Part shown: one piece after another, positions 11,398 to 30,014 of the stretch
How the letters are laid out: every line of letters starts with the position of its first letter
Position numbering within the stretch: position 1 is the stretch's first letter
NCBI GenBank assembly: GCA_001270045.2
Contig: DF970690.1
Coordinates: 220,369-284,368 of the forward strand
DNA: 64,000 nt
Source of the DNA: Bacteroidales bacterium 6E
GTDB taxonomy: Bacteria > Bacteroidota > Bacteroidia > Bacteroidales > Prolixibacteraceae
Direction of reading: 5' to 3'
Made by a program: the position numbers and the translations under genes
Notes under the pieces: model-generated
What the model was told of the DNA's origin: nothing
The model's input: only the letters and a program-made list of their open reading frames with translations
Databases searched by the model: none

Positions 11398-13023
11398 ATG
11401 AAAATGAATAAGCTTATCAATAGCCTCTTTATTCTGGCCATATTCCTTGGATTGCTTTCATCTGCAAGTGCCCAATCTCCTGCAGGTGCACAAAACGCCC
11501 AGGAAAACAGTCAGAAATTCGCCCGCCTGCTTAGACTGGTTGAATCCTACTATGTTGACTCAACAAACATTGGAGACTTGACTGAAAAAGCCATAACCTC
11601 ACTGCTGCAGGACCTTGACCCCCATTCAGTTTATATCTCAAAGGAAGAAGTGGAAAGAATGAATGAGCCCCTCCAGGGAAATTTTGAAGGAATTGGCATA
11701 TCCTTTAACATTCACAAAGACACCCTCTTAGTCTTATCGACAGTTCCTAGCGGGCCTTCCGAAAAAATCGGCATTTTGGCAGGAGATCGTTTCATATTTA
11801 TTGACGGGAAAAACGTTGCAGGCATCGGACTGCAAAACGATGATGTCATGAAAATGCTACGAGGAGAAAAAGGCACAAAAGTTGAGATACGGGTCAAAAG
11901 AAGAAGTATCGAAGAATTATTAGACTTCACCATTATACGGGACAAAATTCCCATCAACAGCCTTGAAGCTTCATACATGATAGACAAGGAAACGGGTTAT
12001 ATTAAACTTAACCGTTTCGCCGCGACGACAATTGATGAGTTTCGTGTAGCCATGTCAGAACTTCAATCCCAAAATGTCAAGAACCTAATACTTGATCTAA
12101 GAGGTAATGGAGGCGGTTACCTTAAGGCAGCAATTGATTTAGCTGATGAATTCCTGCCGGGCAACAGCCTTGTGGTATACACTGAAGGAATCAATAACCC
12201 AAAGAGGGATTATAAGGCCACACAAGAGGGTTCATTTGAGAAAGGGAAGCTGGTTGTACTAATGAACGAAGGATCAGCATCAGCAAGTGAAATTGTAGCT
12301 GGCGCCATCCAGGACTGGGATCGAGGGATCATTATTGGAAGAAGATCATTCGGGAAGGGATTGGTTCAACAGCCTTTCTACCTGACAGATGGTTCAATGG
12401 TACGTCTAACGACGGCTCATTATTATACACCCAGCGGCAGAGGAATTCAAAAGCCATATGTAAATGGAGTCGAAGATTATCGAAATGATTACCAACGCAG
12501 ACTTGAAAGTGGGGAGATGTTTAGTGCAGATAGTATATCATTCCCCGATTCTTTGAAATTCAAAACATTGATAAATGGAAGAACCGTATATGGAGGAGGT
12601 GGAATAATGCCTGATATTTTCGTCAGCATTGACACATCACACCTTTATAGATATTACAATCGACTGCAGAGAAATCAATTAATCAACAACTTCTCTCTGG
12701 AATATTTGGACAAAAACCGTAATTCTCTCATTAAGAAGTACCCTGATTTCAATCAGTTCAACCAAAAATTCAATGCAACAGATGAAATGATTGAAAATAT
12801 TGTGGAAACCGGCGTGAAAGAAGGCATTGACCGTGATCAGGAAAGTATCAATTTCACCCAGGAACAAATGAAGCAAGAAATTAAGGCCATTATTGCCAGA
12901 GATTTATACTCCAGAGACCACTTTTATCAGGTACTCAACCATGATGATAAAACGATTATTAAAGCATTGGAATTATTACAGGACCAGAAAAGGTTTCATG
13001 ATTATCTGGTAAAAATTGATTAA
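11398..13023 (+). CDS. S41 family C-terminal processing protease
   Basis: Serine protease of the CtpA/Prc type, 541 residues from ATG 11398 (alternative in-frame ATGs at 11392 and 11404). A signal peptide (KLINSLFILAIFLGLLSSAS) directs it to the periplasm. A PDZ domain lies around residues 80-170 (NFEGIGISF start). The catalytic motif GSASASE is near residues 292-298, with the general-base Lys in RRSFGKG downstream. Such enzymes trim or degrade envelope proteins from their C-termini. In-frame codons back to 11329 were rejected because they put about 23 charged residues before the signal peptide. pnuC begins 11 bp after its stop, so the three genes are probably co-transcribed. Confidence 0.93.
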   Translation: MKMNKLINSLFILAIFLGLLSSASAQSPAGAQNAQENSQKFARLLRLVESYYVDSTNIGDLTEKAITSLLQDLDPHSVYISKEEVERMNEPLQGNFEGIGISFNIHKDTLLVLSTVPSGPSEKIGILAGDRFIFIDGKNVAGIGLQNDDVMKMLRGEKGTKVEIRVKRRSIEELLDFTIIRDKIPINSLEASYMIDKETGYIKLNRFAATTIDEFRVAMSELQSQNVKNLILDLRGNGGGYLKAAIDLADEFLPGNSLVVYTEGINNPKRDYKATQEGSFEKGKLVVLMNEGSASASEIVAGAIQDWDRGIIIGRRSFGKGLVQQPFYLTDGSMVRLTTAHYYTPSGRGIQKPYVNGVEDYRNDYQRRLESGEMFSADSISFPDSLKFKTLINGRTVYGGGGIMPDIFVSIDTSHLYRYYNRLQRNQLINNFSLEYLDKNRNSLIKKYPDFNQFNQKFNATDEMIENIVETGVKEGIDRDQESINFTQEQMKQEIKAIIARDLYSRDHFYQVLNHDDKTIIKALELLQDQKRFHDYLVKID

Positions 13024-13034
13024 TCCAGATTAGG

Positions 13035-13634
13035 ATGTCACTTAATTTGTCGGAATGGCTTTCAGCCAATTATATAGAGTTAGCCGGAGCCATACTTGGC
13101 ATTGCATACATATACTTTTCCATCAGACAGCATATACTCACCTGGATAACAGGATTGCTGACATCTTTACTGTATATTGTAGTTTTTTATCAGGCAAAGT
13201 TTTATGCCGATATGGGACTACAATTCTATTATGTGGCCATCAGCATATACGGCTGGTATTTATGGAAGAAAAAGAAGCCGGGGCTGACTGATAATACCAC
13301 CATGCCCATTATCCGTGCACGAAGAAATTTTTTCCTGATTTCAGCAATGGCAACCTGGGTTATCTTTCTATTGATTCGTTTCATTCTTGAACGCTATACC
13401 GATTCAATGATTCCAAACATGGATGCCGCTACAACAGCTCTCAGCATCACTGCCACATATATGTTGGCCCGAAAAATGATAGAGCATTGGATTATATGGG
13501 TGGTAGTTGATGTCGGTTCGGCCGGACTTTATATTTATAAAGGATTATGGGCAACGTCCATTCTCTTTTTGGTTTATACCATCATGGCAGTTATTGGGTA
13601 TAAACAATGGAAAAATGAACTATTAAGGCAATGA
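13035..13634 (+). CDS. pnuC: Nicotinamide riboside transporter PnuC
   Basis: A 199-residue inner-membrane protein with about seven hydrophobic segments and the PnuC-type start (GAILGIAYIYFSIRQH, then WITGLLTSLLY). The YYVAISIYGWYLW stretch is also typical of the family. It takes up nicotinamide riboside for NAD salvage. The next gene, a NadR-type kinase, overlaps its end by 4 bp, so the two are translationally coupled. The kinase would trap the riboside by phosphorylation, which supports the assignment. Confidence 0.95.
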   Translation: MSLNLSEWLSANYIELAGAILGIAYIYFSIRQHILTWITGLLTSLLYIVVFYQAKFYADMGLQFYYVAISIYGWYLWKKKKPGLTDNTTMPIIRARRNFFLISAMATWVIFLLIRFILERYTDSMIPNMDAATTALSITATYMLARKMIEHWIIWVVVDVGSAGLYIYKGLWATSILFLVYTIMAVIGYKQWKNELLRQ

Positions 13635-14167
13635 CCATTACAAGTCACAGACCAAGGATCGTAGTTTTAACAGGTGCAGAATCAACCGGAAAATCTGTTC
13701 TGGCAGAGGCTTTAGCCAGACATTTCCATGCCCCGTGGTTTCAGGAATTTGCACGAGACTATGTGCAAAAAATCAATCATCACTATACGATTTATGATGT
13801 TTTGGCAATCGCAAAAATGCAAAAGACACAAATGCAAGCCGCTTTAATGCTAAAATCAGAAATTGTATTTTTTGATACATGGCTTGTTATTACACAGATA
13901 TGGTTAAAAATGGTCTATAATACCGTGCCCGATTGGATTCCTGAAATGATAAAATCGACACCTATCGATCTTTTTTTAATCTGTGACACAGATATTCCCT
14001 GGGAACCAGATCCAGTAAGAGAAAATGGTGGAGAAATGCGAATAGAACTTTCAAAAATCTATCAGAAAACGATTGAAGCTTATGGTTATCCATTCATGAT
14101 GGTTAAGGGAGAAGGTGAAAACAGAACGAAAAATGCGATAGACTTGCTAAATAACTTTCTACTGTAA
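13631..14167 (+). CDS. nadR: NadR-type nicotinamide riboside kinase
   Basis: A 178-residue AAA-type P-loop kinase. The Walker A motif GAESTGKS lies at residues 15-22, and EFARDYV, typical of the ribosylnicotinamide kinase half of NadR, follows. It would phosphorylate nicotinamide riboside to NMN in the cytoplasm. The nucleotidyltransferase half and the DNA-binding region of full-length NadR are absent, so this is the stand-alone kinase form. Its ATG overlaps the pnuC stop by 4 bp. The symbol is by homology to one domain only. Confidence 0.88.
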   Translation: MTITSHRPRIVVLTGAESTGKSVLAEALARHFHAPWFQEFARDYVQKINHHYTIYDVLAIAKMQKTQMQAALMLKSEIVFFDTWLVITQIWLKMVYNTVPDWIPEMIKSTPIDLFLICDTDIPWEPDPVRENGGEMRIELSKIYQKTIEAYGYPFMMVKGEGENRTKNAIDLLNNFLL

Positions 14168-14294
14168 AAAACATAGTATAATTTTATCAAGGCAAAATGA
14201 CCTGAAAGAAATTTTTACCATTTTCCCTTAGCCAGAATGAACAGTAGCTGAAATGCAATTATTTGCTTCATATATATTAAAAGGAATTAAACTT

Positions 14295-15221
14295 ATGAAC
14301 ACAAATGAATTATCCAATCGAATAGGAACGACCATCAGGGAGCTTTCAAATCCAGAAAACTATAATCTGGTATGTCACGAACATATCCAGGGAGAACCAA
14401 TGCCTTCCATATTTAAACTGAAGCGAATAATTGAGCTAGTGCGTGAAGTTATTTTCCCTGGTTACTTTGGAAGTACCTCACTTCGACCCAATACCATCAA
14501 ACATTATATGGGTGTCTATATTGATGAACTTTATGAGTTGCTCACTGGTGAAATCCTTGCAGGATTGTGTTTTGAATGCCGGGACGAGTCAGAAGATAAA
14601 TTATCAAGGCACACCAAAATGTCTAAGGAAATGGCATTGGGCTTTATAGATACACTTCCGGAAATCAGAAGAAAATTGGTAAACGATGTTAAATCCACCT
14701 ATCTTGGTGACCCAGCTGCACTGAGTTTTGGTGAAGTGATATTTTGTTATCCAGGAATAAAAGCCATCACTAATTACAGGGTGGCTCACAGGTTATTCAA
14801 GTTGGGTGTACCCATGATTCCAAGATATATTTCGGAAATGGCACATAGTGAAACAGGGATTGACATCCATCCCGAAGCTACGATTGGAGAATTTTTCACA
14901 ATAGACCATGGCACAGGTGTAGTGATTGGATCTACATGTATTATTGGCAACAATGTAAAAATATACCAAGGAGTGACTTTGGGTGCAAAAAGTTTTGAAT
15001 TGGATGAACATGGAAATCCTGTTAAAGGAGTGCCTCGGCACCCAATTGTGGAAGACAATGTAGTTATATACGCCGGAGCAACTATTTTGGGAAGGATAAC
15101 CATAGGCAAAAATTCTATCATTGGTGGTAATGTTTGGGTCACGAAAAACCTTCCACCTGACTCCAAGGTAGTTCAAAGTTATCCAAGAGAGAACCATTTC
15201 CTGGATGGAGCTGGTATTTAA
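14295..15221 (+). CDS. Serine O-acetyltransferase
   Basis: Makes O-acetylserine from serine and acetyl-CoA, the first step to cysteine. 308 residues from ATG 14295, preceded by a good AAAAGGAATT-type ribosome site, which is why the in-frame ATG at 14253 was not chosen. The N-terminal half is helical and the C-terminal part is a left-handed beta helix of hexapeptide repeats (IGEFFTIDHGTGVVIG, YQGVTLGAKS, GATILGRITIG). The acceptor motif DIHPEATIG and the catalytic DHGTG are visible. Longer than E. coli CysE (273) but typical of the Bacteroidota/plant-like form. No cysK is next to it. Confidence 0.9.
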   Translation: MNTNELSNRIGTTIRELSNPENYNLVCHEHIQGEPMPSIFKLKRIIELVREVIFPGYFGSTSLRPNTIKHYMGVYIDELYELLTGEILAGLCFECRDESEDKLSRHTKMSKEMALGFIDTLPEIRRKLVNDVKSTYLGDPAALSFGEVIFCYPGIKAITNYRVAHRLFKLGVPMIPRYISEMAHSETGIDIHPEATIGEFFTIDHGTGVVIGSTCIIGNNVKIYQGVTLGAKSFELDEHGNPVKGVPRHPIVEDNVVIYAGATILGRITIGKNSIIGGNVWVTKNLPPDSKVVQSYPRENHFLDGAGI

Positions 15222-15238
15222 TCCATAAATTTCTGATT

Positions 15239-16402
15239 GTGAAAAATTATACCATTACAGTTAAAACATTAGAAGGATTGGAATCAGTCCTGGCCGAAGA
15301 AATTAAGCGGTTGGGGGGAAGTAACATTGTCAAAGGGAATCGTGCTGTCTTTTTTGATGGTGACCTTGCAATGGTCTACAGGGCAAATTACAGGCTCAGG
15401 ACAGCCCTACGTGTATTCAGGCAAATCGATTCTTTCAGGTATACGAATGTGGATGACTTTTACCTGAAATGTCTTCGGATGAAGTGGGAAAGTTACATGA
15501 ATTTAAATCAGACTTTCTCGATTCAAAGTACTGTTTTTCATTCCGATATTTTTAAAAACAGCATGTTTGCATCCCTAAAGGTCAAAGATGCCATTGCTGA
15601 TCGCTTCAGGCAAAGGTATGGGACTCGCCCAGACGTAGACACTCAATCACCTGACATCATATTTAACGTGCATATCAGCAATGATATGGTGACAATCTCT
15701 CTTGACAGTTCAGGGGAGTCACTCCATAAAAGAGGATACAGACAGGTCCAGGGAGATGCGCCTCTCAGTGAGGTATTGGCCGCAGGTATGATCCTTATGA
15801 CAGGTTGGGATGGAATTACTGACTTTCTGGATCCAATGTGCGGATCAGGAACTTTACCAATAGAGGCTGCTTTAATCGCAAGAAATATACCTCCAGGAAA
15901 ATACCGGAAATCATGGAGTTTTATGTCTTGGAAAGATTTTGATCCTGAACTTTTTGAACAAATCAAAGAAGAAGCCGAGGTCAGGGAATTCAATGGAAAG
16001 ATCTATGCATCAGATATATTGCATAAAAATATTCTTGCTTCACAATCAAATGCCCGATCCGCAAGGGTATACAATCTTATACATTTTGAAAAGGGAGACT
16101 TTGCAGATATCAACCTGCCTTTGAAGAATTCGACACTAATCATGAATCCTCCTTATGGAGAAAGACTTACATCTCCGGATTTGGATAATCTATATTCCAT
16201 GATTGGGGAAAGGTTAAAACATCATTATTCATCAAATCAGGCATGGATTTTAAGCTCATCGCCCAACCTTATTCACAAAATAGGTCTCAAACCTTCAGTA
16301 AAAGTGAGGCTTTTAAACGGGGCATTAGAATGCACCTATCAGAAATACGAACTTTTTGAAGGAAAAAGAATCGACAGAATTGTCAAAAAAAGACTGAGGT
16401 GA
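15239..16402 (+). CDS. THUMP-domain 23S rRNA methyltransferase (RlmL-like)
   Basis: A 387-residue class I methyltransferase. An N-terminal THUMP RNA-binding domain covers about residues 1-160. The catalytic domain has the SAM motif DPMCGSGTLPIEAAL and the amino-methylation motif NPPYGERL. This architecture matches the m2G2445 methyltransferase of 23S rRNA (the first half of E. coli RlmL). It uses a GTG start at 15239, 17 bp after the acetyltransferase gene, so co-transcription is likely. The exact target base is inferred from family only. Confidence 0.88.
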   Translation: MKNYTITVKTLEGLESVLAEEIKRLGGSNIVKGNRAVFFDGDLAMVYRANYRLRTALRVFRQIDSFRYTNVDDFYLKCLRMKWESYMNLNQTFSIQSTVFHSDIFKNSMFASLKVKDAIADRFRQRYGTRPDVDTQSPDIIFNVHISNDMVTISLDSSGESLHKRGYRQVQGDAPLSEVLAAGMILMTGWDGITDFLDPMCGSGTLPIEAALIARNIPPGKYRKSWSFMSWKDFDPELFEQIKEEAEVREFNGKIYASDILHKNILASQSNARSARVYNLIHFEKGDFADINLPLKNSTLIMNPPYGERLTSPDLDNLYSMIGERLKHHYSSNQAWILSSSPNLIHKIGLKPSVKVRLLNGALECTYQKYELFEGKRIDRIVKKRLR

Positions 16403-16460
16403 AAGCGTTTTTCCACCTCTATTGACAATGTAACCACTCCTGCAACTTATACAGATTGTA

Positions 16461-16619
16461 TTATTGTTCGCGGGTATCGTAGATGTCAATGTCCCTGGTT
16501 CTAAGTTTTGGGACTGAATCTCCACCACGGATATTGTTCATTTCAGAAACACTCAACAATTCTACACCGAATATATTGATTTTATTATCTTTACGATTGT
16601 TGTTGCTGATAGTTTTCAT
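16461..16619 (-). CDS. Double-glycine leader peptide precursor (52 aa)
   Basis: A short gene too small for ordinary ORF lists. Translation from ATG at 16619 gives 52 residues. Residues 20-33 read ELLSVSEMNNIRGG, a good match to the Bacteroidota double-glycine leader pattern (L-S-x-x-E-M-x-x-I-x-G-G) of secreted natural-product precursors. Cleavage after Gly33 would free a 19-residue core, DSVPKLRTRDIDIYDTREQ, rich in Asp and Arg and without Cys or Trp. No C39-peptidase transporter or maturation enzyme is in the window. It is divergent from the CHAT protease gene, with 104 bp between the start codons. Function unknown: signalling peptide or bacteriocin-like are both possible. Confidence 0.6.
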   Translation of the reverse strand: MKTISNNNRKDNKINIFGVELLSVSEMNNIRGGDSVPKLRTRDIDIYDTREQ

Positions 16620-16627
16620 TGTCTCAA

Positions 16628-16663
16628 GGATAAATCGTTAAACTTTTATACATTCACTCTCAC
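16628..16663 (-). repeat. Left copy of an imperfect inverted repeat flanking the CHAT gene
   Basis: Read on the minus strand it holds GTGAGA, then GTGAATGTATAAAA, then AACGAT and ATCC. The right copy at 19707-19745 has the same blocks in the same order with a 6-bp insertion. It lies directly upstream of the double-glycine peptide gene, ending 9 bp before its ATG. Confidence 0.65.
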
Positions 16664-16684
16664 ATTAATATTCCTGAAATGATG

Positions 16685-16696
16685 AAAAGGTAACCC
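16685..16696 (+). promoter_or_regulatory. Shared motif AAAAGGTAACCC upstream of the CHAT gene
   Basis: An identical 12-mer occurs upstream of the ECF sigma gene (21854-21865). It ends 27 bp before the ATG of the CHAT gene. The core GGTAACC is almost palindromic, so orientation may not matter. Confidence 0.45.
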
Positions 16697-16723
16697 AGAA
16701 AAAATGAGTTTTTTTTGAAAAAA

Positions 16724-19621
16724 ATGAAAAATAAACCGCATAAGCCTGATTATAAGCCCATTAAAAAACATATTTTTTTATTATTTTTTTCAATAATTAT
16801 AATTAATACCGGGATTTACGGCCAAAACAATATTGAAAAGTCAAAAAAGGCCGATGATTTATATTGGGCTGGCGTTGATACTGCCAGGTTAACCAATGAA
16901 TATGAAATCGCCCTTGATCTATTAACCAAAAGCCTTTCTTTGTCGCAGGAAGTTTTCGGCAAACAAAATCATCGACTGGGAAGAATTTACACAGCTATTG
17001 GTAACCAATATAAAAATTTATATCAGCTTGAAAATGCCTATCAAAACTACAGATTGGCAGAAGAAATGTATTTGCTCGACAGTTTAAATAACACAATTGG
17101 ATTAGCGGGTCTTTATTCCAATCTTGGAAGTTACTTCAGAGGGCAAGGTAACTACTCAGAAGCTATAAGATATAACCTTCGTTCTCTGAATTTATATGAC
17201 TCACTTTACGAAAAAAATCTACTTTTAAGTCCTGCACAAAAAAGGAATAGATTCTTTGCTGCTTTAAATCTAACCAATTCATATTATGAATCAAATCACT
17301 TAGAGGAAGCAGTAGAAGTAATTCAAAAATATGCGAGACAAGCTGATGCTGAATCTAGAATAATGCTGGAGAGTAATTTGGCACTAATTTATTCTGATCA
17401 GGAAAAATTCAACGAGGTTAAGTCCATCATCAGAAAAAATATAACAACATACATAAGTCTTTATGGGAAAAATGATTACAGCGTTGCTGATCAATATATA
17501 ATTCTTGGAAAGGTACTAATTCAGCAAGATTTGCAAGATTCAGCATTAGTTTATTTGAAAAAAGCAAAAGAAATATATGGACTGTATGAAAATGTTGAAG
17601 AATATATAGTTCAAATTGACAGGTTATTTGCTGATGCTTGGTTGACAATGAAGGTAAATACACAAAATGAAATTGAATTCAAGAAACAAAGAATAAGTAA
17701 CCTAAGCAACGCAACTAATTATTATTTACAGTGCTTAAATAGGCTGAATGACATTCAGAATAAAGATTCAATAAGTTTTGAATCTTTAAATAAAAGCAAA
17801 TATCAGATAATTAATCTTCAAATAATTAGACAATTAGCAAGAACTTGGACTCAAATTGGCCAAATAAGTACCGAAGAACCAGAAGATCGAAAGATTTATT
17901 TTAAAAATGCGATGAATGCCATGGTTGCGGCAAGTGAGCTAGCCATGCACATGCGAACCAGCTTTATATCTGAAGAAAGTAAACTATTATTTGCTGAATT
18001 GCAGAGGGATATTTTCACCCAAACTCTCGAAACTGCATTTGAATTACATGAACTCGATAGAGATATTAAAAACTTCAATACCGCATTGATCAATGCAGGT
18101 CGTGCCAAATCGGCTGTTCTCGTAGACAACATCGGCGAAGTTGAAGCAAGAGAATATAGTTTGATCCCTGACAGTCTGATAAAGCAAGAGAATTTGTATA
18201 ATGCAAATATCGCATATTATCAGGAAAAACTTTTTCAAACCAGTTCTGGAGACAATCAGAATCCAGGAAAAGCAAACTATTACCGGGAGCTTATATTCAA
18301 GAATGAGCAGGAAAGGGATGACCTGAGAGCTTTTCTTGAAAAAAACTATCCTGACTACTATGAGCTTAAGTACCAAAGAAAAGAATATAGTATCAAAGAC
18401 ATACAAAGATCACTCAAGAGAAATGAAGCCATTGTTGAATATGTAATAACAAAGCATCCTGAACTGAATTCAGGTGATATTTATATTCTTGCCATTTCCA
18501 AGGAGCAGTATCTTTTTAAAAAAATATCATATGATGAAACCTTTATGGAAAGAATCACTAAAGTACATCATTTGCTTAGCTATAAAGGTTTTATACATTC
18601 AGGCCTCAATGAATTCAAGGATTACTGCAATAATTCATATGAAGCATATCACAAGCTTGTAGATCCAATAACGCCAATTATTGCACAAAAACGCGTTACC
18701 ATCATTCCGGATGGTATACTCAACTATATTCCCTTTGAAGCCCTGTTGACAAAAAAGGTTAACATGAATTCAATACATTATCATGATTTGCCTTACCTCA
18801 TTCATGATTTCCCAATAAGCTACCATTATTCGCAGGAACTCATGATCAGGAACAGAACAGCAGAAAAAAGAAAAGCAAAAAGAGTTCTGGCCTTGGCACC
18901 AGACTATAAACTGGCACAATATCAAAATGGGAATACACCCATGTTGGCTTCAATTCCAGGAACATTTGAGGAAGTTAATTTTATTAAGGAACTCCTTGGC
19001 GCAGAGACCTATATAGGAAAAACCGCCACCGAATCACAGTTCAGAAAAACATCAGGTGAATATGATATTTTACATTTGGCAATGCATACAATTATTAACG
19101 ATTCCTTACCTATGTTTTCAAGCCTTGCCTTTTTCCCAATCAATCAAGATACCCATGATGACGGATGGTTAAATACCGCAGATATTTATAACCTCCAGCT
19201 AAACGCGCGAATGACAGTTTTGAGTGCCTGTGACACTGGATCAGGTTTACTAAGGACAGGTGAAGGTGTAATGAGCTTGGCAAGAGGTTTTCTCTATGCT
19301 GGTAGTCCGACAATGGTGATGACCCTTTGGGAGGTAGAAGACAGGTCCGGAACAGAAATCATGAAAGAATTTTACAAAAACCTCAAATCAGGTAAACCCG
19401 TGGACGTTGCATTACAAAATGCCAAACTCAAACATATCAGAAACGCTGATCCTTTCACAAGTCATCCTCATTTTTGGCTCAGTTATATCAGTATTGGATT
19501 GAATGATCCAATATTTAGAGGATATGATGCCATTTTTTACATCGCATTGTCAATAATCCTGATTCTGGTCATTTTCGATCAATGGTTCAGGAAAAAAGGT
19601 GGTAAAAAGTTCAATCACTGA
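16724..19621 (+). CDS. TPR-CHAT caspase-like protease, membrane anchored
   Basis: A 965-residue protein. After a basic N-terminus, a hydrophobic segment (about residues 18-35) acts as signal peptide or anchor. Several TPR units cover about residues 40-330. The C-terminal CHAT domain (caspase fold) carries the catalytic dyad: His788 in LHLAMHT and Cys836 in SACDTG, followed by the family's GEGVMSLARGFLYAG. A C-terminal membrane segment (about 940-957) precedes a basic tail, so the TPR and CHAT parts should lie outside the cytoplasm. ATG 16724 is preferred over TTG 16715. No partner substrate is proven. The divergent peptide gene and the convergent sigma/TPR pair are candidates. Confidence 0.88.
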   Translation: MKNKPHKPDYKPIKKHIFLLFFSIIIINTGIYGQNNIEKSKKADDLYWAGVDTARLTNEYEIALDLLTKSLSLSQEVFGKQNHRLGRIYTAIGNQYKNLYQLENAYQNYRLAEEMYLLDSLNNTIGLAGLYSNLGSYFRGQGNYSEAIRYNLRSLNLYDSLYEKNLLLSPAQKRNRFFAALNLTNSYYESNHLEEAVEVIQKYARQADAESRIMLESNLALIYSDQEKFNEVKSIIRKNITTYISLYGKNDYSVADQYIILGKVLIQQDLQDSALVYLKKAKEIYGLYENVEEYIVQIDRLFADAWLTMKVNTQNEIEFKKQRISNLSNATNYYLQCLNRLNDIQNKDSISFESLNKSKYQIINLQIIRQLARTWTQIGQISTEEPEDRKIYFKNAMNAMVAASELAMHMRTSFISEESKLLFAELQRDIFTQTLETAFELHELDRDIKNFNTALINAGRAKSAVLVDNIGEVEAREYSLIPDSLIKQENLYNANIAYYQEKLFQTSSGDNQNPGKANYYRELIFKNEQERDDLRAFLEKNYPDYYELKYQRKEYSIKDIQRSLKRNEAIVEYVITKHPELNSGDIYILAISKEQYLFKKISYDETFMERITKVHHLLSYKGFIHSGLNEFKDYCNNSYEAYHKLVDPITPIIAQKRVTIIPDGILNYIPFEALLTKKVNMNSIHYHDLPYLIHDFPISYHYSQELMIRNRTAEKRKAKRVLALAPDYKLAQYQNGNTPMLASIPGTFEEVNFIKELLGAETYIGKTATESQFRKTSGEYDILHLAMHTIINDSLPMFSSLAFFPINQDTHDDGWLNTADIYNLQLNARMTVLSACDTGSGLLRTGEGVMSLARGFLYAGSPTMVMTLWEVEDRSGTEIMKEFYKNLKSGKPVDVALQNAKLKHIRNADPFTSHPHFWLSYISIGLNDPIFRGYDAIFYIALSIILILVIFDQWFRKKGGKKFNH

Positions 19622-19706
19622 TTTTGTTATCGTTTTATTTCAAAGAGCGCGTTCTTGAGTGAAATTAATTCCTTTGATATCCTTGTTTTCAAAAAAGAGT
19701 GAGAGA

Positions 19707-19745
19707 GTGAGAATGATAGTGAATGTATAAAACAACGATAGATCC
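19707..19745 (+). repeat. Right copy of the inverted repeat flanking the CHAT gene
   Basis: Contains GTGAGA, ATGATA (insertion), GTGAATGTATAAAA, AACGAT and ATCC. It is the plus-strand counterpart of 16628-16663 and lies between the CHAT stop and the end of the convergent TPR gene. No peptide ORF follows it. Confidence 0.65.
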
Positions 19746-19759
19746 AGGAAATTTTTACA

Positions 19760-21190
19760 TTATCTTGATAGTTTGTTTAGTAAAATTTTTGCTTTCTCCT
19801 CATAAAATCCATTTCGTGATACAATCGCCATGAGCTGTTGCTTGGCCTTATCTTCCTCATCCAGACGAATAAAACATATTGCACTGAACCATTCGGCTTG
19901 TTCAATAAATAAGTTATCCCCCTGATTTATTACAGCTGCATATTCAAGAATGGCTTTATCGTGTTCATCCAGATTTTGATAACTGGCTCCCGCAAAAAAG
20001 CGGGCTGATGGTTCGTTCTGATTAACCTCTATTACTTTTAGAAAGCTAGAAAGTGCAGATTGATAGTCTCCTTCATTGTATTTTGCAAAACCTCGCGAAA
20101 GGTCTGAACTTATATTCATGTCAGGGGTGGCAGAACGAAATGCTGACATGGCAGCCGGAGAGTCATTTAGCAAAGCTGTTGATATATCATTCTGTGTTAT
20201 TGAATATCGGACAACTATTGAAAGTGACATCAGTCCTATAATTAAAGCTGCAGCGGCCCCGATTTTCTTTAATCCGCCAAGTGACTTACGGAATGGCAAA
20301 ATCGATTTTTCCTCCCTGGTCATTACATTGACGGAAAGTTCCCGTAACTCTTGACGCAGGTCCATGATATCCGATTCAGAAAGTGCAATGTCAAGTTCCC
20401 TCATGAGCAACAACTCTGAACGAAGATCATCATTTTCATTTAACTCTGAAGTAAAACTTTCTTTTGAAGTTTCATCCAGTTCGTCATTTATAAAGGATTC
20501 AATCTCCTCCAAACTATGAGAAAGAGATGATTCCCTCGACATAATTTCAACAAGAAGATCTCTCATCTCAATGACATCAGATTCAGCCAGTGCTTCATCC
20601 AAGTCTATCAGAAGGTCTATATCCTTACTAAGCGAAGGATTAAATGCAAGGTCTTCTTCGAACTGTTCCAGGGCAGCTGCTGACATATTCCCCTCGACAT
20701 AATTTTCGAGATCTTCCATTGAATAGGTATGGCTATGTGATGCTTTAGAAATCTGACGGAGATTTGCCCTGAGATCCATCATATCTTTTTCAAGTATGGC
20801 CGATCCTATTTCCTGCCATAATTCGATATCTGTATCTAAGTCATCACTTTCATCCACTTCAGAAACTGAAGATTGCTGTTCCTTGTAGAATTGGTGAACC
20901 ACCTCACTTTCAGATCTCTGATGATTTTCTATATGAATTTTTGGAAGGGATTCAAAATAATCTGCTATATCCTCAGGCAAATCATTTTCAGTGAGTATGG
21001 ATTCCATATCAACTTCATCAGCCAAATCAAATGCCGCGGACATTTTTGCAAATGTGGCTTTCTGTTCAACAATAATGTTTTTAATTTGATTTCTGAGGAC
21101 TTCGGTATCACTATCAAGAATTGCTTCTTCTATCTCGTGAAACAATTTGAAGTCAGCGTCCAAACGGGGGTCTTCATTAAAATTTTTCAT
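19760..21190 (-). CDS. Membrane TPR protein with four internal repeats; putative anti-sigma factor
   Basis: A 476-residue protein starting 47 bp after the ECF sigma gene. The acidic N-terminal part holds four copies of a helical motif of the form LxxExxxAIxESDxxxLRxxLxxI near residues 16, 124, 193 and 263; the last three are spaced about 70 residues. Between them lie segments (ENYVEGNMS..., ESFINDELD...) like the start of anti-sigma domains. A membrane segment at about 307-329 follows a basic stretch, which predicts N-inside topology. Two or three TPR units (about 360-470) would be outside. No zinc-finger Cys/His ligands are seen. The anti-sigma role is inferred from position and layout only. 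Confidence 0.75.
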   Translation of the reverse strand: MKNFNEDPRLDADFKLFHEIEEAILDSDTEVLRNQIKNIIVEQKATFAKMSAAFDLADEVDMESILTENDLPEDIADYFESLPKIHIENHQRSESEVVHQFYKEQQSSVSEVDESDDLDTDIELWQEIGSAILEKDMMDLRANLRQISKASHSHTYSMEDLENYVEGNMSAAALEQFEEDLAFNPSLSKDIDLLIDLDEALAESDVIEMRDLLVEIMSRESSLSHSLEEIESFINDELDETSKESFTSELNENDDLRSELLLMRELDIALSESDIMDLRQELRELSVNVMTREEKSILPFRKSLGGLKKIGAAAALIIGLMSLSIVVRYSITQNDISTALLNDSPAAMSAFRSATPDMNISSDLSRGFAKYNEGDYQSALSSFLKVIEVNQNEPSARFFAGASYQNLDEHDKAILEYAAVINQGDNLFIEQAEWFSAICFIRLDEEDKAKQQLMAIVSRNGFYEEKAKILLNKLSR

Positions 21191-21237
21191 TTCTTAGGGT
21201 TTGTTATAAGATAGCCGGTCTTACCGACCATCCGGGT

Positions 21238-21825
21238 TTATGTATCATCTTCAAATAATTTCTTGTATTCAACGTCCTGCTTGATTCTTTCAACAAGCAG
21301 TTCCTTGCACTTGAACTTACGGGTTTTAACATACTTCTCACTTTTAAATCCCATTATGTGAGCTATCTGTTTAATCGGCACCTTCTCAAAGAATAGTTGA
21401 AGAATTTTCTGGCAATCAGTACTGATACTTTTAAAATGTTTCTGATACAGAAGAAATCTTTCATTTTTTTCGACTACTGCAACCAGGTCATCATCATAAA
21501 TCTCATCCTGAAAATTGAGCGTATCATTGATTTTTTGTTTATCAAGCCTACGCTTTTCCAATTCTTTCAGCCAAAGAAACCTGCATACCGAAAACAAATA
21601 GACCTCAAAAGAACGATTTTCGAACAGAAGGTCATTTTCTTTTAATTTCCTGTAAATGATGATAATCGCTTCCTGAAATACATCATTGACATCATCTTCG
21701 TCACCGTTGTTCTTGCGGATGAAAGCATTAACCTTATAGAAATATTGCTTATAAATAAACGCAAGTACCACATTATCATGCCGAAGGATCCCCTTCAGGA
21801 TTTGATCATCGGTAAAACTCTTCAT
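21238..21825 (-). CDS. ECF-type RNA polymerase sigma factor
   Basis: A 195-residue sigma-70 family protein. Region 2 is visible around DVNDVFQEAIIIIYRKL and region 4 around IKQIAHIMGFKSEKYVKTR, a helix-turn-helix for -35 recognition. It would direct RNA polymerase to a small regulon. The downstream membrane TPR protein (47 bp away) is the likely regulator. The start ATG at 21825 is supported by a rich AT leader. The 12-bp motif AAAAGGTAACCC lies 28 bp upstream and is shared with the CHAT gene, which suggests joint control, possibly autoregulation. Confidence 0.9.
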   Translation of the reverse strand: MKSFTDDQILKGILRHDNVVLAFIYKQYFYKVNAFIRKNNGDEDDVNDVFQEAIIIIYRKLKENDLLFENRSFEVYLFSVCRFLWLKELEKRRLDKQKINDTLNFQDEIYDDDLVAVVEKNERFLLYQKHFKSISTDCQKILQLFFEKVPIKQIAHIMGFKSEKYVKTRKFKCKELLVERIKQDVEYKKLFEDDT

Positions 21826-21853
21826 GTTCTATCTATTAATTCGTTTTTGGGCC

Positions 21854-21865
21854 AAAAGGTAACCC
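21854..21865 (+). promoter_or_regulatory. Shared motif AAAAGGTAACCC upstream of the sigma gene
   Basis: Identical to 16685-16696. Measured on the sigma gene's strand it reads GGGTTACCTTTT and ends 28 bp before the ATG. Direction relative to the gene is opposite to that at the CHAT gene. Confidence 0.45.
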
Positions 21866-22022
21866 TAACCTTTTCATTTTTTTTCATTTTTTTTATCACA
21901 ACTGGTTAATTGTCTTACATCCAAATAGTTCAACAACCATCAGAAAATGATATCAACTGTCGAATTTAGAAATATTTAGGAAAATATATTGATTATTTAT
22001 TGGAAAAGTAGAGATTGCCATT

Positions 22023-22058
22023 AAAAAACAAAAGGATAGATTCAACAATCTATCCTTT
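22023..22058 (-). terminator. Intrinsic terminator on the minus strand
   Basis: A perfect 12-bp stem, AAAGGATAGATT (22031-22042) and AATCTATCCTTT (22047-22058), with loop CAAC. Read on the minus strand it is followed by TTTTGTTTTTT. Confidence 0.8.
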
Positions 22059-22106
22059 CTCTTTAAACTAACTAACCTAACTAAACCTAAACTTATGAAA
22101 ATAAAC
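22024..22106 (-). ncRNA. Candidate small RNA (or attenuated leader) upstream of the sigma gene
   Basis: A minus-strand promoter (22113-22144) is followed by about 80 nt and then a strong terminator with a T tract. The transcript would carry repeated GGTTTAG/GGTTAG/GTTAG units. No ORF is needed to explain it. It could be a free-standing sRNA or an attenuator in a leader reaching the sigma gene, whose ATG is about 200 bp further on. The family is not recognised with certainty. Confidence 0.5.
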
Positions 22107-22112
22107 GTACCA

Positions 22113-22144
22113 CAAAAGTACGTGGCAAGCCTTAGAAATCCAAA
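22113..22144 (-). promoter_or_regulatory. Promoter of the candidate small RNA
   Basis: On the minus strand, TTTG (22144-22141) and TACTTTTG (22120-22113) with a 20-bp spacer, a close match to the Bacteroidota promoter. Confidence 0.65.
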
Positions 22145-22269
22145 GAAAAGTTTGTTAATTCTTGTTAAAAATCCCCCTTGAATTCCTCAACAAATAAGTA
22201 AAACAGACACTGACAAATAAAAAAGACTCAGGCTATTCCTATCCAATGATCATTATTCACAAGCATGAA

Positions 22270-23007
22270 TCATTGGGCAATAAATATATAGCGTATGGTG
22301 CCAAATTGTGGATTTGGTGCAGATTGGTCCTGGTTAAATTGTGTTCTTTGGGCAGCTGCCTGGGCATAAAGATAAATCTGTTCATCCGTCACGGTGGCAT
22401 TTCTTCTTGGGGTTGCATTTACCACCCTACCCTGTCGGTTAACGGAAATATCCACAATTACGGTACCACCACCTTTCGCAAGATAAATTGGAATGGGAAG
22501 CCGCAAATGGTATCTGTTGTTCAATTGGTATTCAATATTGCTATCACCACTGTAAATAATGTTACTAATAGAATCAGGATCCATTCCTTCCGTCACTTCC
22601 TCAGGCATACGAATCTTTGACATGTCGGGTATTTCCTTCGAAAGCTGTTTCTTCACATCAGCCACCAGGCTTTTTGCATTTTCAACTTCACGTTGATAGG
22701 ATTCGTCAAAAAAAGCCTCTCTCGACGATTGGCGCCCATCAGAGGCATTGGCCGAAGAAGGCATATTTGTCCTCGATGATGGAACGGAAGTCATATTCTG
22801 AGTGCTATAATCCTGTTCTGCTTCAATGGTCTCTTCCTCTAAAGGCAATTCTTCAATAGGAAACTCAATTACAATGGCCGATTCTGTCATTTCCCGCTTT
22901 AAATCCATCTCTGCAATTAAAAATAATCCAACCAGTACAATATGAAATCCCAGAGTACCCATTACCCCGTAAATATTTCTTTTGTATAAATGGACAATTT
23001 TCTTCAT
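22270..23007 (-). CDS. TonB-like protein
   Basis: A 245-residue protein with a short cytoplasmic basic tail, one membrane segment (about residues 13-33), an acidic linker (EELPLEEETIEAEQ) and a C-terminal domain with the TonB-C layout: GGGTVIVDISVNRQGRV, then a helix and a final strand. This suggests an energy transducer or a structural relative that contacts the outer membrane. No ExbB/ExbD or TonB-dependent receptor is nearby. It has a terminator-like hairpin only about 210 bp downstream. Confidence 0.75.
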   Translation of the reverse strand: MKKIVHLYKRNIYGVMGTLGFHIVLVGLFLIAEMDLKREMTESAIVIEFPIEELPLEEETIEAEQDYSTQNMTSVPSSRTNMPSSANASDGRQSSREAFFDESYQREVENAKSLVADVKKQLSKEIPDMSKIRMPEEVTEGMDPDSISNIIYSGDSNIEYQLNNRYHLRLPIPIYLAKGGGTVIVDISVNRQGRVVNATPRRNATVTDEQIYLYAQAAAQRTQFNQDQSAPNPQFGTIRYIFIAQ

Positions 23008-23014
23008 TTGACCA

Positions 23015-23049
23015 CAAAAATAAAAATAAACCTATAGTCGGTGTTCAAA
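23015..23049 (-). promoter_or_regulatory. Possible promoter of the TonB-like gene
   Basis: On the minus strand TTTG (23049-23046) and TATTTTTG (23022-23015). The spacer is 23 bp, longer than usual, and the -7 box is only 7 bp from the ATG, so the transcript would be nearly leaderless. Confidence 0.4.
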
Positions 23050-23242
23050 TATTTTTACACGCTGCCATAAACAAATTGTATCAATGATTTGGCCATATTC
23101 TATAGAATTGCAATTAATAGTCTTCAATTTAACAGATTTTAACACACTGAAATATAGCTCATTAGGTAATATGATCTAAATTCAGCCCTTACTGGCACCC
23201 GTTGAATGATTGACAATATAGAAACACCGAGGTTCCTGATGG

Positions 23243-25096
23243 ATGTTGAAACCGAATGCTTTACATAGAATCCTTCAAATAGTTTTGCTTACAATACTTG
23301 GCATGGGCTATGCTCCGGCACAACTATCATTGCCTGATTCAACCAGATTGATCAATGCCAGGGATGAAAAAATCACTAATTTTTATGATACCCTAAAAGT
23401 TCGAGCCGCGAGGAAAAACTTTACCAGAATCCTTTATGACTTTGTAGTAAAAGATGAACCCAGAAACAGAGACCAAAAGTTACACAGAGAGAACAGTTAC
23501 ACTGATGCTGAAGGTAAGCTTATTAGGGAAATTCGCTTCCTTCGACTTGATGTATTCGGTCCCTCACTACAGGACACTTCCAGAAAGGCCAAGTCATGGA
23601 TTGAAAGAACTGGTAATATCCTTCATACTCGTTCTGACTTGCATAATCTTCGCAAGAACTTGATCATTAAGCCAGGTGATACCTTAAACTCAGAATTGCT
23701 TTATGAGAACGAAAGGCTTTTTCGGACCTTGCCCCGCATAAGGGATGCCAGATTTATCCTGTTACCGGATAGTCTCAATCCAGATATTGTGGATTTACTC
23801 CTTATAACCCAAGATAGATTTTCGATTGGGGTTAGCGGTGTATTAAATGGAACCTCATCAGCAAAAGCTGAAATCTATAACCGCAACCTTTTTGGTGTTG
23901 GGCACGAAGCTTCTTTCAGATTTGTCGGCCATATGAACAGGCAACCCTATATCGGGTTCGAATCCTTTTATAATATTAACAACATTAATGGAAAGTTTCT
24001 AAACTTTTCAGCAGGGTATTCAAACACCTATTTGAATGAAGGCACACTCACACTTTTCGAAAAGCCACTAGTACTTAAAACTGACCAGTTTGCTTATGGA
24101 ATCAGTGGATACTCCTACAAGAGAACAAACAGGTTGCCCGGTCTAAAAAAACAATTCCCATACGACATACCCAACTATAGCCAATTAAATGTCTGGGGTG
24201 CCCGAAATATTCAGCTTAAGGACAGAAATGACAGAGAAACGCAGCTCACATTTGCATCTGGCCTTCAAATCAGGAACGTAAAATATGACCACCATTTCAC
24301 TGGTGATACTGCGATTTATTTTTCTGATAACAAACAATATCTTTTTGGCATTACCTGGTCACAACGAAATTATATTCCTGACAGATTGATTTATGGTTAT
24401 GGTATCACCGAGGATATTCCAATGGGATTTAAGTATGAAATGGTTGCAGGACTTGACAATCATGTAACTGGAAAGCGAATCTATACCCATGTTTTCCTGT
24501 CGAATGGCAATTTTTTTCGGAATGCCCCCGACCATCTTTACATGTACGGATCATATAGCGGTTACTTCAGGAATGCCCGACAACAACAGGGAATGATTGA
24601 ATTTGGAATGAATTTCATTTCGAGGTTGTATGCCATTGGTAATGTACGATCCAGACATTTCGTAAGATTTGATTATACCAGGGGAATAAACCGTCTCGAT
24701 CCGGAGGAGTTAATGTTTGAGAAGAATGATTTCATTCGTGGTTTCAGCAGCGATCGAATATCAGGGAAACAACGCCTTAGCCTTAATCTTGAGAGTGTAT
24801 TTTTTCAAAAAAAAGATTTTTACCGATTCAACATTGCTTTTTTTACTTTTGGAGATCTTGGTATCCTTGGTGTTGAAGGTCGAAATATTATGAAGGAGAA
24901 TTATTACGGTGGATTTGGTGCAGGACTCCGCCTTCACAATGAATCACTTGTCCTTAAAACTATTCTGGTCAGGCTTGCAGTATATCCCAGACATCCAAAC
25001 GATGTCGGGCTTCTAGGCATGCTGGTTACTGAACAAACCAAACAAACATTCTATAATTTTCAGCCTGGCCCTCCAGAACCTCGCAGGTATGAGTAG
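23243..25096 (+). CDS. Omp85/BamA-like outer membrane barrel protein
   Basis: A 617-residue protein with a signal peptide (ILQIVLLTILGMGYAPAQ). Around residues 85-175 lies a POTRA-like module (IREIRFLRLDVFG...GDTLNSELLYENERLFRTLPRIRDARF), followed by about 420 residues of alternating short strands typical of a barrel, including GVLNGTSSAKAEIYNRNLFGVG. It is shorter than BamA (one visible POTRA instead of five) and is closer to the short Omp85-family proteins of Bacteroidota. Role in outer membrane assembly or transport is inferred. The 235-bp region before it holds no other gene. Confidence 0.78.
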   Translation: MLKPNALHRILQIVLLTILGMGYAPAQLSLPDSTRLINARDEKITNFYDTLKVRAARKNFTRILYDFVVKDEPRNRDQKLHRENSYTDAEGKLIREIRFLRLDVFGPSLQDTSRKAKSWIERTGNILHTRSDLHNLRKNLIIKPGDTLNSELLYENERLFRTLPRIRDARFILLPDSLNPDIVDLLLITQDRFSIGVSGVLNGTSSAKAEIYNRNLFGVGHEASFRFVGHMNRQPYIGFESFYNINNINGKFLNFSAGYSNTYLNEGTLTLFEKPLVLKTDQFAYGISGYSYKRTNRLPGLKKQFPYDIPNYSQLNVWGARNIQLKDRNDRETQLTFASGLQIRNVKYDHHFTGDTAIYFSDNKQYLFGITWSQRNYIPDRLIYGYGITEDIPMGFKYEMVAGLDNHVTGKRIYTHVFLSNGNFFRNAPDHLYMYGSYSGYFRNARQQQGMIEFGMNFISRLYAIGNVRSRHFVRFDYTRGINRLDPEELMFEKNDFIRGFSSDRISGKQRLSLNLESVFFQKKDFYRFNIAFFTFGDLGILGVEGRNIMKENYYGGFGAGLRLHNESLVLKTILVRLAVYPRHPNDVGLLGMLVTEQTKQTFYNFQPGPPEPRRYE

Positions 25097-25170
25097 CCAA
25101 CCATAAAATTAACATTACATCTTATTTCCGTAAAATTCAGAGTATTATGTCCTATATCAAATAAATTGAA

Positions 25171-25178
25171 TAATTTTG
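25171..25178 (+). promoter_or_regulatory. -7 box of the DEAD-box helicase gene
   Basis: TAATTTTG matches TAnnTTTG, 29 bp before the ATG at 25208. No good -33 TTTG is visible. Confidence 0.5.
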
Positions 25179-25207
25179 CGCCCTAATTTTACACTTATCT
25201 ATTTTAA

Positions 25208-26905
25208 ATGATTCTATTTAATGAAACCGGGCTTGCCCCGTCACTCCTAAAAGCTGTTGAACAACTGGGATTTATTTCTCCCACCCCCATTCAGGAAAAG
25301 ACAATTCCACTTATTCTAAACGAACGTACAGATATTGTAGCACTTGCGCAAACCGGAACCGGTAAAACCGCTGCCTTTGGACTGCCAGTCTTGCATCAGA
25401 TTGAACCTTTCTCCAGAAATGTTCAGGCATTAGTTCTTTGCCCAACGCGAGAATTGTGTCTTCAGATCACCAACGATCTAAACAATTTCACCAAATTCTC
25501 CCAAGGAATTCAAGTAGTGCCCGTATACGGCGGTGCCTCCATCAATGACCAAATCAGGCTACTGGATAAAAATCCACAAATTGTTGTGGCTACGCCTGGT
25601 CGTGCTGTTGACCTGATCAATCGAAAAAAACTCAATTTGGGTAGTATTGGCTGGCTGATTCTCGATGAAGCTGACGAAATGCTCTCAATGGGATTCAAGG
25701 AAGATCTTGACTTTATTCTTTCCGGAACCCCCTCATCAAAGCAGACTCTCTTGTTTTCTGCAACTATGCCTGCCGAAATTGCAAGAATCGCAAGCAAATA
25801 TATGAAAAAACCCCAGGAAGTCTCTGTGGGAAAAGCAAACCAAGGAGCCGACAATGTATCGCACGAATACTTTTTGGTCCATGCAAAAGATCGCTATGAG
25901 GCACTCAAAAGAATTGCTGATGTCAATCCAAAAATCTATGGAATAGTATTTTGTCGGACAAGGGCAGAAACCAAAGAGGTAGCCGATAATCTCATTCGGG
26001 ATGGTTATAACGCAGATGCTCTTCATGGTGACCTGTCTCAAGAGATGAGAGACATAGTTATGAACAGATTCCGTAACCGGCACTTGCAAATTCTGGTAGC
26101 AACAGATGTTGCTGCACGCGGATTGGATGTCAATGATCTTACTCATGTAATAAATTATAACCTGCCTGATGATCCGGAAGTATATATTCACCGAAGTGGC
26201 AGAACTGGTCGAGCAGGCAAAAACGGGATATCCATATCTATTCTTCACCTGAAGGAAAGAGGAAAGCTGAAAGATATCGAAAGAATGTTGAACAAGAAAA
26301 TCGAGCAGAAGCCGGTCCCTTCAGGAAAGTACATCTGTGAAAAACAACTTTTCAACCTAATCGATAAAGTGGAACGAGTGGAAGTGAACACCCAACATAT
26401 TGACGATTATCTGCAAGTGATATACAAAAAACTGGAATGGCTCGACCGAGAAGAACTGATTAAGCACTTTGTTTCAGTCGAATTCAACCGTTTCCTTGCT
26501 TCATATGAGAATGCTCCTGACCTAAATGTTGATACAAGCAAAAACAATTCAGCCAAAGGCAATAAATCAAGAAACGGATACTCCCAATGGGATGAGGATG
26601 AACCAAGAAATAGAAAAAGCGGAAGAGGCTTATCTGAAGGATCAGGCAAACGTGGACAAAGAATACAATTCTCGAGAATGTTTTTAAATATTGGGAAAAG
26701 TGACAGGATGGATAAAAGAACCATCATTAATATGGTAAACCAGACACTTCCTGGAAAGTCGGTCGAAATTGGAGAAATTGAGGTTCTTAGAAATTTCTCA
26801 TTTTTCGAGATCGATAACCGATACGAAAAGGACCTTCAGCGAGGCTTCCGCCATATTCAATTTAAGGGTAAACAGATTGGACTGGAAGTGGCCAAGCCAA
26901 AATAA
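25208..26905 (+). CDS. DEAD-box RNA helicase with DbpA-type C-terminal domain
   Basis: A 565-residue ATP-dependent RNA helicase of the DeaD/CsdA group. The Q motif (FISPTPIQEKTIP) and Walker A (AQTGTGKT) lie near residues 25-52. The DEAD box is at 153-156, followed by SAT and by HRSGRTGRAG. A linker rich in charged residues (about 440-480) leads to a DbpA-like RNA-binding domain (FLNIGKSDRMDKRTIINMV...). It would unwind structured RNA in ribosome assembly or cold adaptation. Single gene with a terminator behind it. Confidence 0.94.
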   Translation: MILFNETGLAPSLLKAVEQLGFISPTPIQEKTIPLILNERTDIVALAQTGTGKTAAFGLPVLHQIEPFSRNVQALVLCPTRELCLQITNDLNNFTKFSQGIQVVPVYGGASINDQIRLLDKNPQIVVATPGRAVDLINRKKLNLGSIGWLILDEADEMLSMGFKEDLDFILSGTPSSKQTLLFSATMPAEIARIASKYMKKPQEVSVGKANQGADNVSHEYFLVHAKDRYEALKRIADVNPKIYGIVFCRTRAETKEVADNLIRDGYNADALHGDLSQEMRDIVMNRFRNRHLQILVATDVAARGLDVNDLTHVINYNLPDDPEVYIHRSGRTGRAGKNGISISILHLKERGKLKDIERMLNKKIEQKPVPSGKYICEKQLFNLIDKVERVEVNTQHIDDYLQVIYKKLEWLDREELIKHFVSVEFNRFLASYENAPDLNVDTSKNNSAKGNKSRNGYSQWDEDEPRNRKSGRGLSEGSGKRGQRIQFSRMFLNIGKSDRMDKRTIINMVNQTLPGKSVEIGEIEVLRNFSFFEIDNRYEKDLQRGFRHIQFKGKQIGLEVAKPK

Positions 26906-26925
26906 AGAATTGAAAAGTCATCGGG

Positions 26926-26959
26926 AAAAAAGCCAGTTATATGCATATCTGGCTTTTTT
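26926..26959. terminator. Bidirectional terminator between the two helicase genes
   Basis: An 11-bp stem, AAAAAAGCCAG (26926-26936) and CTGGCTTTTTT (26949-26959), between convergent genes. Confidence 0.85.
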
Positions 26960-26966
26960 CATTTTA

Positions 26967-29906: not shown

Positions 29907-30014
29907 TTCCAAAGATTTATGACAGCCAAGAGATGAAAGTGAAATTTCATAAATTGGGGAAATTTAAACCGGCAAAGTAAAAGAAAAACCAATAATCCGA
30001 AGGTTATAAAATGA

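Follow-up and report, generated by a model that had tools for sequence, protein, structure and literature searches.

The type III-E CRISPR system CASP has a TPR-CHAT protease (Csx29), a sigma inhibitor (Csx30) and a sigma factor (CASP-sigma), and its published account also refers to regulated intramembrane proteolysis of the DegS-RseA-RseP-sigmaE type (PMC10028731). For the ECF54 group of extracytoplasmic function (ECF) sigma factors, CHAT, subtilase and carboxypeptidase genes are described as neighbours and proteolytic control is proposed (PMC8999054). Here we describe a locus of Bacteroidales bacterium 6E (genome size 4.44 Mb) that resembles each of these systems in part. It lies at approximately 16461-21865 of the window, by which we mean the whole 64,000-nt stretch under analysis. 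We confirm that it comprises an ECF sigma factor gene, a gene for a predicted membrane anti-sigma factor, a gene for a TPR-CHAT protease predicted to face the periplasm, and an overlooked gene for a short peptide. An earlier note on this DNA had the first three right and was incomplete: the peptide gene, whose end coincides with the note's own start coordinate of 16461, and two copies of a promoter-like motif were absent from it. We suggest that such loci may give some Bacteroidota a new means of responding to peptide signals. To our knowledge, the inputs of most Bacteroidota ECF sigma factors and CHAT proteases are unknown, and we recognised no description of the whole four-part system in the open-access literature searched, a body that mostly excludes subscription papers and preprints.

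With CASP the locus shares a TPR-CHAT protease, a sigma inhibitor and an ECF sigma factor, and Csx29 is the best fold match of its protease. It differs in that the protease carries a signal-peptide-like N terminus and a transmembrane anchor, the inhibitor is a membrane protein, the CHAT half has no significant sequence match in the PDB, and a peptide gene takes the place that guide and target RNA have in the CRISPR system. Csx29 and Csx30 are not known to be membrane-anchored. With predicted transmembrane segments in both proteins and no match to a type III effector, the locus falls outside CASP itself. A search for RAMPs (PF03787), positive in 4 of 14 genomes as a control, found none in the genome of strain 6E, and no CRISPR array was detected in window positions 10000-30000, as the earlier note's proposal of a system without any CRISPR part had it. 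Placement in a defence island was considered and rejected: in PADLOC the CHAT and sigma proteins had no match and the anti-sigma protein a single weak one (E 0.0074), and the RAMPs search was negative. Rfam gave nothing at gathering thresholds in 14000-25200.

Systems of the DegS/RseA type combine a single-pass anti-sigma factor with a membrane-anchored periplasmic site-1 protease (PDZ-trypsin) and an M50 site-2 protease. The present locus is like DegS-RseA-RseP-sigmaE in its single-pass anti-sigma factor and membrane-anchored periplasmic protease, both by predicted topology, and in the presence of one M50 gene in the genome. Here, however, CHAT replaces PDZ-trypsin, the anti-sigma-like units are repeated and there is a dedicated peptide gene. 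In ECF54, too, CHAT proteins occur near an ECF sigma factor and proteolytic control has been proposed, whereas the available part of its description contains no peptide gene. ComC-type double-glycine pheromones use a C39-ABC exporter, and the RRNPP family consists of cytoplasmic TPR regulators that bind imported peptide. The locus recalls both in its double-glycine leader, C39-ABC exporter and a TPR protein as possible peptide receptor; this TPR protein is, however, predicted to be periplasmic and to carry a protease domain, with output through an ECF sigma factor, which sets it apart from RRNPP receptors.

The association of these genes extends well beyond strain 6E. Across 247 genomes of the phylum, searched at E 1e-12 for the anti-sigma protein and E 1e-60 for CHAT, at least 99 anti-sigma and at least 109 CHAT matches form at least 58 pairs within 10 kb, against about 0.8 expected from random placement, and these pairs fall in 39 of the 48 genomes having both. 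The counts are lower bounds because at most six anti-sigma and three CHAT candidates were scored per genome. The pairs may be convergent, divergent or tandem, and most of 18 stretches from more distant families with anti-sigma and CHAT matches contain a sigma match too. Co-occurrence across Bacteroidota had been named beforehand as a check on the earlier interpretation, and it holds. A sigma-seeded set, 80 named loci taken out of 559 confirmed (loci, of this set and others, are cited below by L number), is not independent of this survey because the profiles were derived from it and some genomes are common to both. Among its 39 loci with full 8-kb flanks, 32 have both the anti-sigma and CHAT genes, four the anti-sigma gene only and three neither; the 41 cut loci divide into 26 with both, eight with anti-sigma only, six with CHAT only and one with neither. 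Draconibacterium orientale FH5T (L118) carries all four genes, with three copies of the peptide gene.

Peptide genes of this kind are so short that annotation may overlook them. In the window, a search for shared upstream DNA found the promoter-like motif GGGTTACCTTTT-N11-GAAT in two copies on the minus strand, one that stops 14 nt short of the sigma start codon (21839-21865) and one beside the CHAT start and pointing away from it (16670-16696). The latter led to a 52-aa frame (16619-16461, minus strand) that diverges from the CHAT gene and has the pattern of a double-glycine leader, with a leader of 33 aa and a predicted core of 19 aa. The Prolixibacteraceae group, which is set by similarity rank and not by formal taxonomy, was taken here as those of L101-L155 and L180 in which CHAT exceeds 800 aa and 500 nt or more of upstream sequence is present. 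Each of its 37 loci has a double-glycine peptide gene no more than 1.6 kb from CHAT and divergent to it, against a background of 0.016 per locus; the same leader pattern recovered the window's own copy. The window peptide passes no leader model, coming under the cut-off for TIGR04149 at E 0.043. Among eight peptides compared with such models, one relative passes (TIGR01847, 17.2 against 15.7) and another matches PF10439 (E 0.0017). Outside the group, 11 of 14 loci with a complete CHAT gene and upstream DNA have a predicted short exportable precursor by CHAT, of the double-glycine type in L162, L163, L166, L169, L174 and L175 and signal-peptide-like, with a C terminus resembling DVNGVYVPD, in L159, L161, L164, L173 and L176, the second type being one without a measured background. 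One of five double-glycine matches outside the group, at 1272 nt in L164, proved to be a kinase fragment and was discarded as a false positive. In still more distant families, a signal-peptide scan of eight loci found precursors of 62-63 aa in L182 and L184, the former with three identical copies.

The predicted cores are 10-27 aa long, net negative in 32 of 37 and free of Cys, and they vary between genera. Within an array they are held constant to a degree that leaders are not: in L116, L117, L118 and L124 the leaders are 25-45% identical and the cores, aligned from the N end, 81-100%. Between the two L109 copies and in all L118 pairs the core amino acids are unchanged, with 1-5 synonymous codon changes. 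Over 28 tandem pairs (558 codons), 338 codons are identical, 115 synonymous and 105 changed, the changed ones mostly in L174 and in two misaligned L180 pairs. Core distance also follows the TPR domain of the protease. With all other domains accounted for, the partial correlation is 0.351 across the 34 loci that have all the proteins, a value reached by 0 of 1000 permutations (0.347 and 0 of 2000 in a first version with 37 loci); the leader against the TPR domain gives -0.106, and the core against the catalytic domain -0.147.

An exporter of the kind expected for double-glycine peptides is present in the genome, where the one C39 match, roughly 300 kb away from the window, is a C39-ABC gene adjoining an HlyD-like gene. 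In a few relatives the linkage is direct. Among 140 loci scanned, C39-ABC lies behind the peptide genes within the sigma/anti-sigma/CHAT cluster in L162 (the genome of L099), L174 and L175; an HlyD-like gene follows in L162 and L175, and the L174 stretch ends at that point. In L171, sigma, anti-sigma, C39-ABC (a copy checked against Pfam) and HlyD-like genes stand in a row, with no CHAT gene within the flanks.

The motif is shared by the sigma and peptide genes. It occurs with at most two mismatches before 41 of 78 sigma genes, where the best of 20 shuffles had 3-6 mismatches, and before 41 of 61 peptide genes (a count without a shuffle control), the rest being mostly later array copies; the first gene of the array bears it in all 37 Prolixibacteraceae-group loci. 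Exact sites number 55, in 22 of 41 family genomes, against one for the reversed pattern. A looser form gives seven sites in the genome of strain 6E against one for the reversed control, and of these only three have TTTT, the third lying in an RHS-like region. The motif is mostly missing where the sigma gene is separate from the anti-sigma gene, and is also missed at some loci where the two adjoin; in L102 and L163 it was missed because the predicted sigma start lies upstream of it. In L132, L134, L145 and L148, the peptide and anti-sigma genes stand together behind one motif. A broad regulon was considered and set aside after 20 sites taken as off-locus had been examined; one of them (L261) was the locus' own peptide gene. 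Downstream of two others (L258 and L263) lies a similar exported-looking protein of 229-240 aa; otherwise the genes behind these sites share no evident feature. In two other Bacteroidales, L156 (14095-14121, minus strand) and L168 (14192-14218, minus strand), the motif stands 33 and 46 nt, respectively, before a secreted-looking protein of about 410 aa near CHAT, and in L156 another copy precedes a kinase-like gene by 32 nt; the output may therefore differ between families. The distance between the peptide motif and the predicted CHAT start is 3-81 nt in the relatives listed (in the window both fall within 16670-16724), and transcribing the peptide gene may therefore hinder CHAT transcription.

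The sigma factor (195 aa, 21238-21825, minus strand) was correctly identified as an ECF sigma factor. It scores 42.5 bits against TIGR02937 over residues 23-179, 0.4 below the cut-off of 42.9, and 21.5 against PF04542, just below the cut-off of 24. Its family profile aligns residues 10-181 with SigW among solved ECF sigma structures (E 1.3e-9). Region 2 has a Pfam match and region 4 has none of its own; taken together, these matches point to an ECF-type member of the sigma-70 family, short and with regions 2 and 4. Identity to 31 relatives is 27-97%, the closest (97%) being from Prolixibacteraceae bacterium UBA5740. By record the relatives belong to Prolixibacteraceae and other Bacteroidota, some of them recorded under other genera.

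Convergent with the sigma and anti-sigma genes is that of the protease (16724 with an ATG start or 16715 with a TTG start to 19621, plus strand), the only PF12770 match in the genome (E 3e-55, 188.2 bits against a cut-off of 24). Its sequence has the features of a CHAT peptidase, including the His/Cys dyad: His791 (TTG numbering; 788 from the ATG) at 19085-19087 and Cys839 (836) at 19229-19231. Among 37 aligned rows, His is present in 35 and Cys in 36, the remainder being gaps, and in 44 of 44 aligned copies both are invariant, which upholds the reading of an intact dyad. Topology was assigned by scanning hydropathy and charge in 35 anti-sigma and 37 CHAT sequences, some of them fragments, a simple procedure rather than a trained predictor. 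The window's protease has an N-terminal hydrophobic segment and, at the C terminus, a transmembrane segment with a K/R-rich tail. Of the 37 CHAT proteins, 35 have a C-terminal transmembrane segment followed by K/R residues, and of the other two one is truncated by a contig end and one is a fragment; an N-terminal hydrophobic segment exceeded the threshold in 23. Because of these transmembrane and charge patterns, the CHAT domain and the TPRs of both proteins are predicted to be periplasmic. The earlier model depends on protease and target lying on the same side of the membrane and had the protease facing outside; the scan agrees on both points.

The structure model of the protease (mean predicted local distance difference test score, pLDDT, 85.2; predicted template-modelling score, pTM, 0.80) has as its best PDB match by Foldseek chain 8eey_B, Csx29 (E 1e-13, template-modelling (TM) scores 0.37/0.46, 12% identity), followed by other Craspase chains, separases and ciliary proteins. 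The likeness to Csx29 on which the earlier note built thus stands by fold, at rank 1 with low TM-scores, and fails by sequence, as the CHAT half has no significant match among PDB chains. At ranks 11-12 comes the transmembrane anti-sigma factor DdvA (8rot/8rw5), of what we take to be a Myxococcus pair, DdvA/DdvS, linked to defence; its structure aligns with the protease model at E 3.5e-11 and TM-scores of 0.29-0.32. Judging from this match, DdvA presumably unites an anti-sigma part and a TPR-CHAT-like fold in one chain, whereas here they are encoded by two genes.

The membrane protein (476 aa, 19760-21190, minus strand) is a predicted anti-sigma factor with four repeats, one transmembrane segment and a periplasmic TPR part. 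The arrangement claimed for it, an acidic repeat part inside and a TPR part outside, agrees with our analysis. Residues 1-305 contain 79 D/E against 26 K/R; the hydrophobic segment at residues 309-327 (20210-20266, minus strand) has four K/R before it and one after, so the N terminus is predicted to be inside. TPR matches at residues 366-425 are each under their Pfam cut-off. Across the family scan, 33 of 35 sequences have one transmembrane segment, usually richer in K/R before than after, a predicted topology that fits the plan of membrane anti-sigma factors: cytoplasmic domain, one transmembrane segment, periplasmic part. The repeat region (20318-21169, minus strand) has cores at approximately residues 10-39, 118-147, 187-216 and 256-285. 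That there are four repeats is upheld at the profile level, where hhalign gives 97.5-99.8% between blocks against 0.3-1.1% for a TPR control block, and not on the single sequence, where 9-12 identities in 30 are no better than chance (500 shuffles: mean 8.3, maximum 12). In resemblance to anti-sigma domains, the homology of the repeats is weak and below curated cut-offs: of 55 homologues, 31 reach E 0.01 or better with the NCBIfam anti-sigma model NF052375 and 10 reach E 0.1 or better with zf-HC2. The corresponding protein of other families is mostly about 250-290 aa long with fewer units, which suggests that the four-repeat form arose by expansion. The structure model has a mean pLDDT of 75.9 and a pTM of 0.39. 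In L132 (11555-16018) and L091 (6937-11393) there are two anti-sigma genes each, equal in length and score, and both of those in L132 sit behind their own motif and an identical peptide gene.

Where the earlier note had the protease cutting the outer TPR part, we propose as candidate site Arg352 (codon at 20135-20137, minus strand), in the linker between the transmembrane segment and the TPR. Clan CD proteases such as separase favour Arg at P1. Among 94 dereplicated proteins (of 113), Arg352 is kept in 86 (entropy 0.60), and the next most conserved position in 328-363 is the adjoining Ser353 with 65; Tyr is common at 338, 341 and 342, and residues 342-357 are coil in the model. Because of this conservation, the coil, the clan CD preference and the presence of Csx29 and separases among the nearest folds, Arg352 is our best guess for the cut, and only that.

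From these parts we propose a self-amplifying, peptide-responsive sigma switch, a model that we hold to be about evenly balanced as a whole. At rest, the membrane protein would hold the sigma factor through its cytoplasmic anti-sigma-like repeats. The peptide, its leader removed, would be exported by the C39-ABC/HlyD system and read by the TPR superhelix of the membrane-anchored periplasmic protease, a step with which the co-variation of core and TPR is consistent. The activated protease would then cut the anti-sigma factor in its periplasmic linker, most likely after Arg352, and a site-2 protease, for which the one M50 gene might serve, would with cytoplasmic proteases free the sigma factor. 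The motif common to both could then let the sigma factor transcribe the peptide gene along with the sigma operon. The earlier interpretation is thus partly supported; it lacked an input signal, a role for which the adjacent peptide is a candidate. More specifically, and tentatively, this would be Bacteroidota peptide quorum sensing, in which an exported pheromone, of double-glycine or signal-peptide type and differing between genera, binds the periplasmic TPR of the CHAT protease and so brings about cleavage of the membrane anti-sigma factor with its repeated anti-sigma units and autoinduction of the sigma factor; we put this somewhat short of an even chance.

Several observations weigh against the proposed switch. 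CHAT is missing from 7 of the 39 full-flank sigma loci, and three of these are also without the anti-sigma gene; L125, L126 and L143 hold close sigma homologues and have no anti-sigma or CHAT match within 8 kb. No peptide was found by CHAT in L156, L168 and L178, three of the 14 loci outside the group, and the signal-peptide scan found none in six of eight loci from more distant families, L188 offering only an unrelated-looking 115-aa frame. Before 37 of 78 sigma genes the motif is absent even when two mismatches are allowed, and the motif sites examined outside the locus show no common target. All NF052375 matches for which bits were given are far under its cut-off of 100, the window's own copy reaches only E 0.21 and does not match zf-HC2, and the 50 Foldseek rows listed for the anti-sigma model hold TPR and other helical proteins and no anti-sigma domain. 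The TM-scores of the fold matches of the CHAT model are low, and Arg352 might be structural. Finally, the partial Mantel test is imperfect, because it also gives values with no evident meaning for leader against mid-domain (0.234, reached by 1 of 1000 permutations), core against sigma (0.260, 8 of 1000) and core against the anti-sigma domain (0.181, 17 of 1000).

The strongest competitor makes the peptide an output, such as a bacteriocin, public good or colonisation factor, induced by the sigma factor once the protease has sensed envelope stress or another ligand. The sigma-type motif before the peptide gene, the fact that some leaders weakly match bacteriocin models and the motif before the secreted-looking protein in L156 and L168 all suit such a role; the cores, however, being short, mostly net negative and without Cys, are unlike pore-forming bacteriocins, are kept in tandem copies whose leaders diverge, and co-vary with the protease TPR. 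We think an output possible and rather unlikely. The peptide might instead be a substrate or an inhibitor (pseudosubstrate) of CHAT, so that the protease would be released to attack the anti-sigma factor as peptide levels fall, giving negative feedback. Many cores do have an Arg amid acidic residues, reminiscent of the conserved Arg in the anti-sigma linker, and the two genes are divergent neighbours; yet the listed cores of the Prolixibacter loci (L129, L131) and of the YNIPVPIIIEE and KSEDVYADLN types contain no Arg, and this explanation seems to us improbable. Control by TPR-to-TPR binding alone, with no proteolysis, could draw on the predicted periplasmic TPRs of both proteins and on the alignment of DdvA with the protease model, but would not need a His and a Cys invariant in every aligned copy, which makes it more improbable still. 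Mere synteny of unrelated genes, with which the loss of one partner at some loci would agree, is scarcely credible for genes that stay together across many families while their order and orientation change.

Brought together at this locus are a sigma factor, a predicted anti-sigma factor, a protease, a peptide that may be the signal, a promoter-like motif and a candidate site of cleavage, and each step of the proposed switch can therefore be tested in cultured strains. If correct, it would add a receptor of a new sort to peptide signalling in a Gram-negative phylum and a non-CRISPR setting for the Csx29 mechanism; under quorum sensing, a signalling design widespread outside CRISPR would count the Csx29/Csx30/sigma module of CRISPR among its relatives.

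Other genes also adjoin CHAT in more distant families: one of 650-675 aa in L185, L189 and L198, and one of 207-219 aa in L188, L193 and L197.

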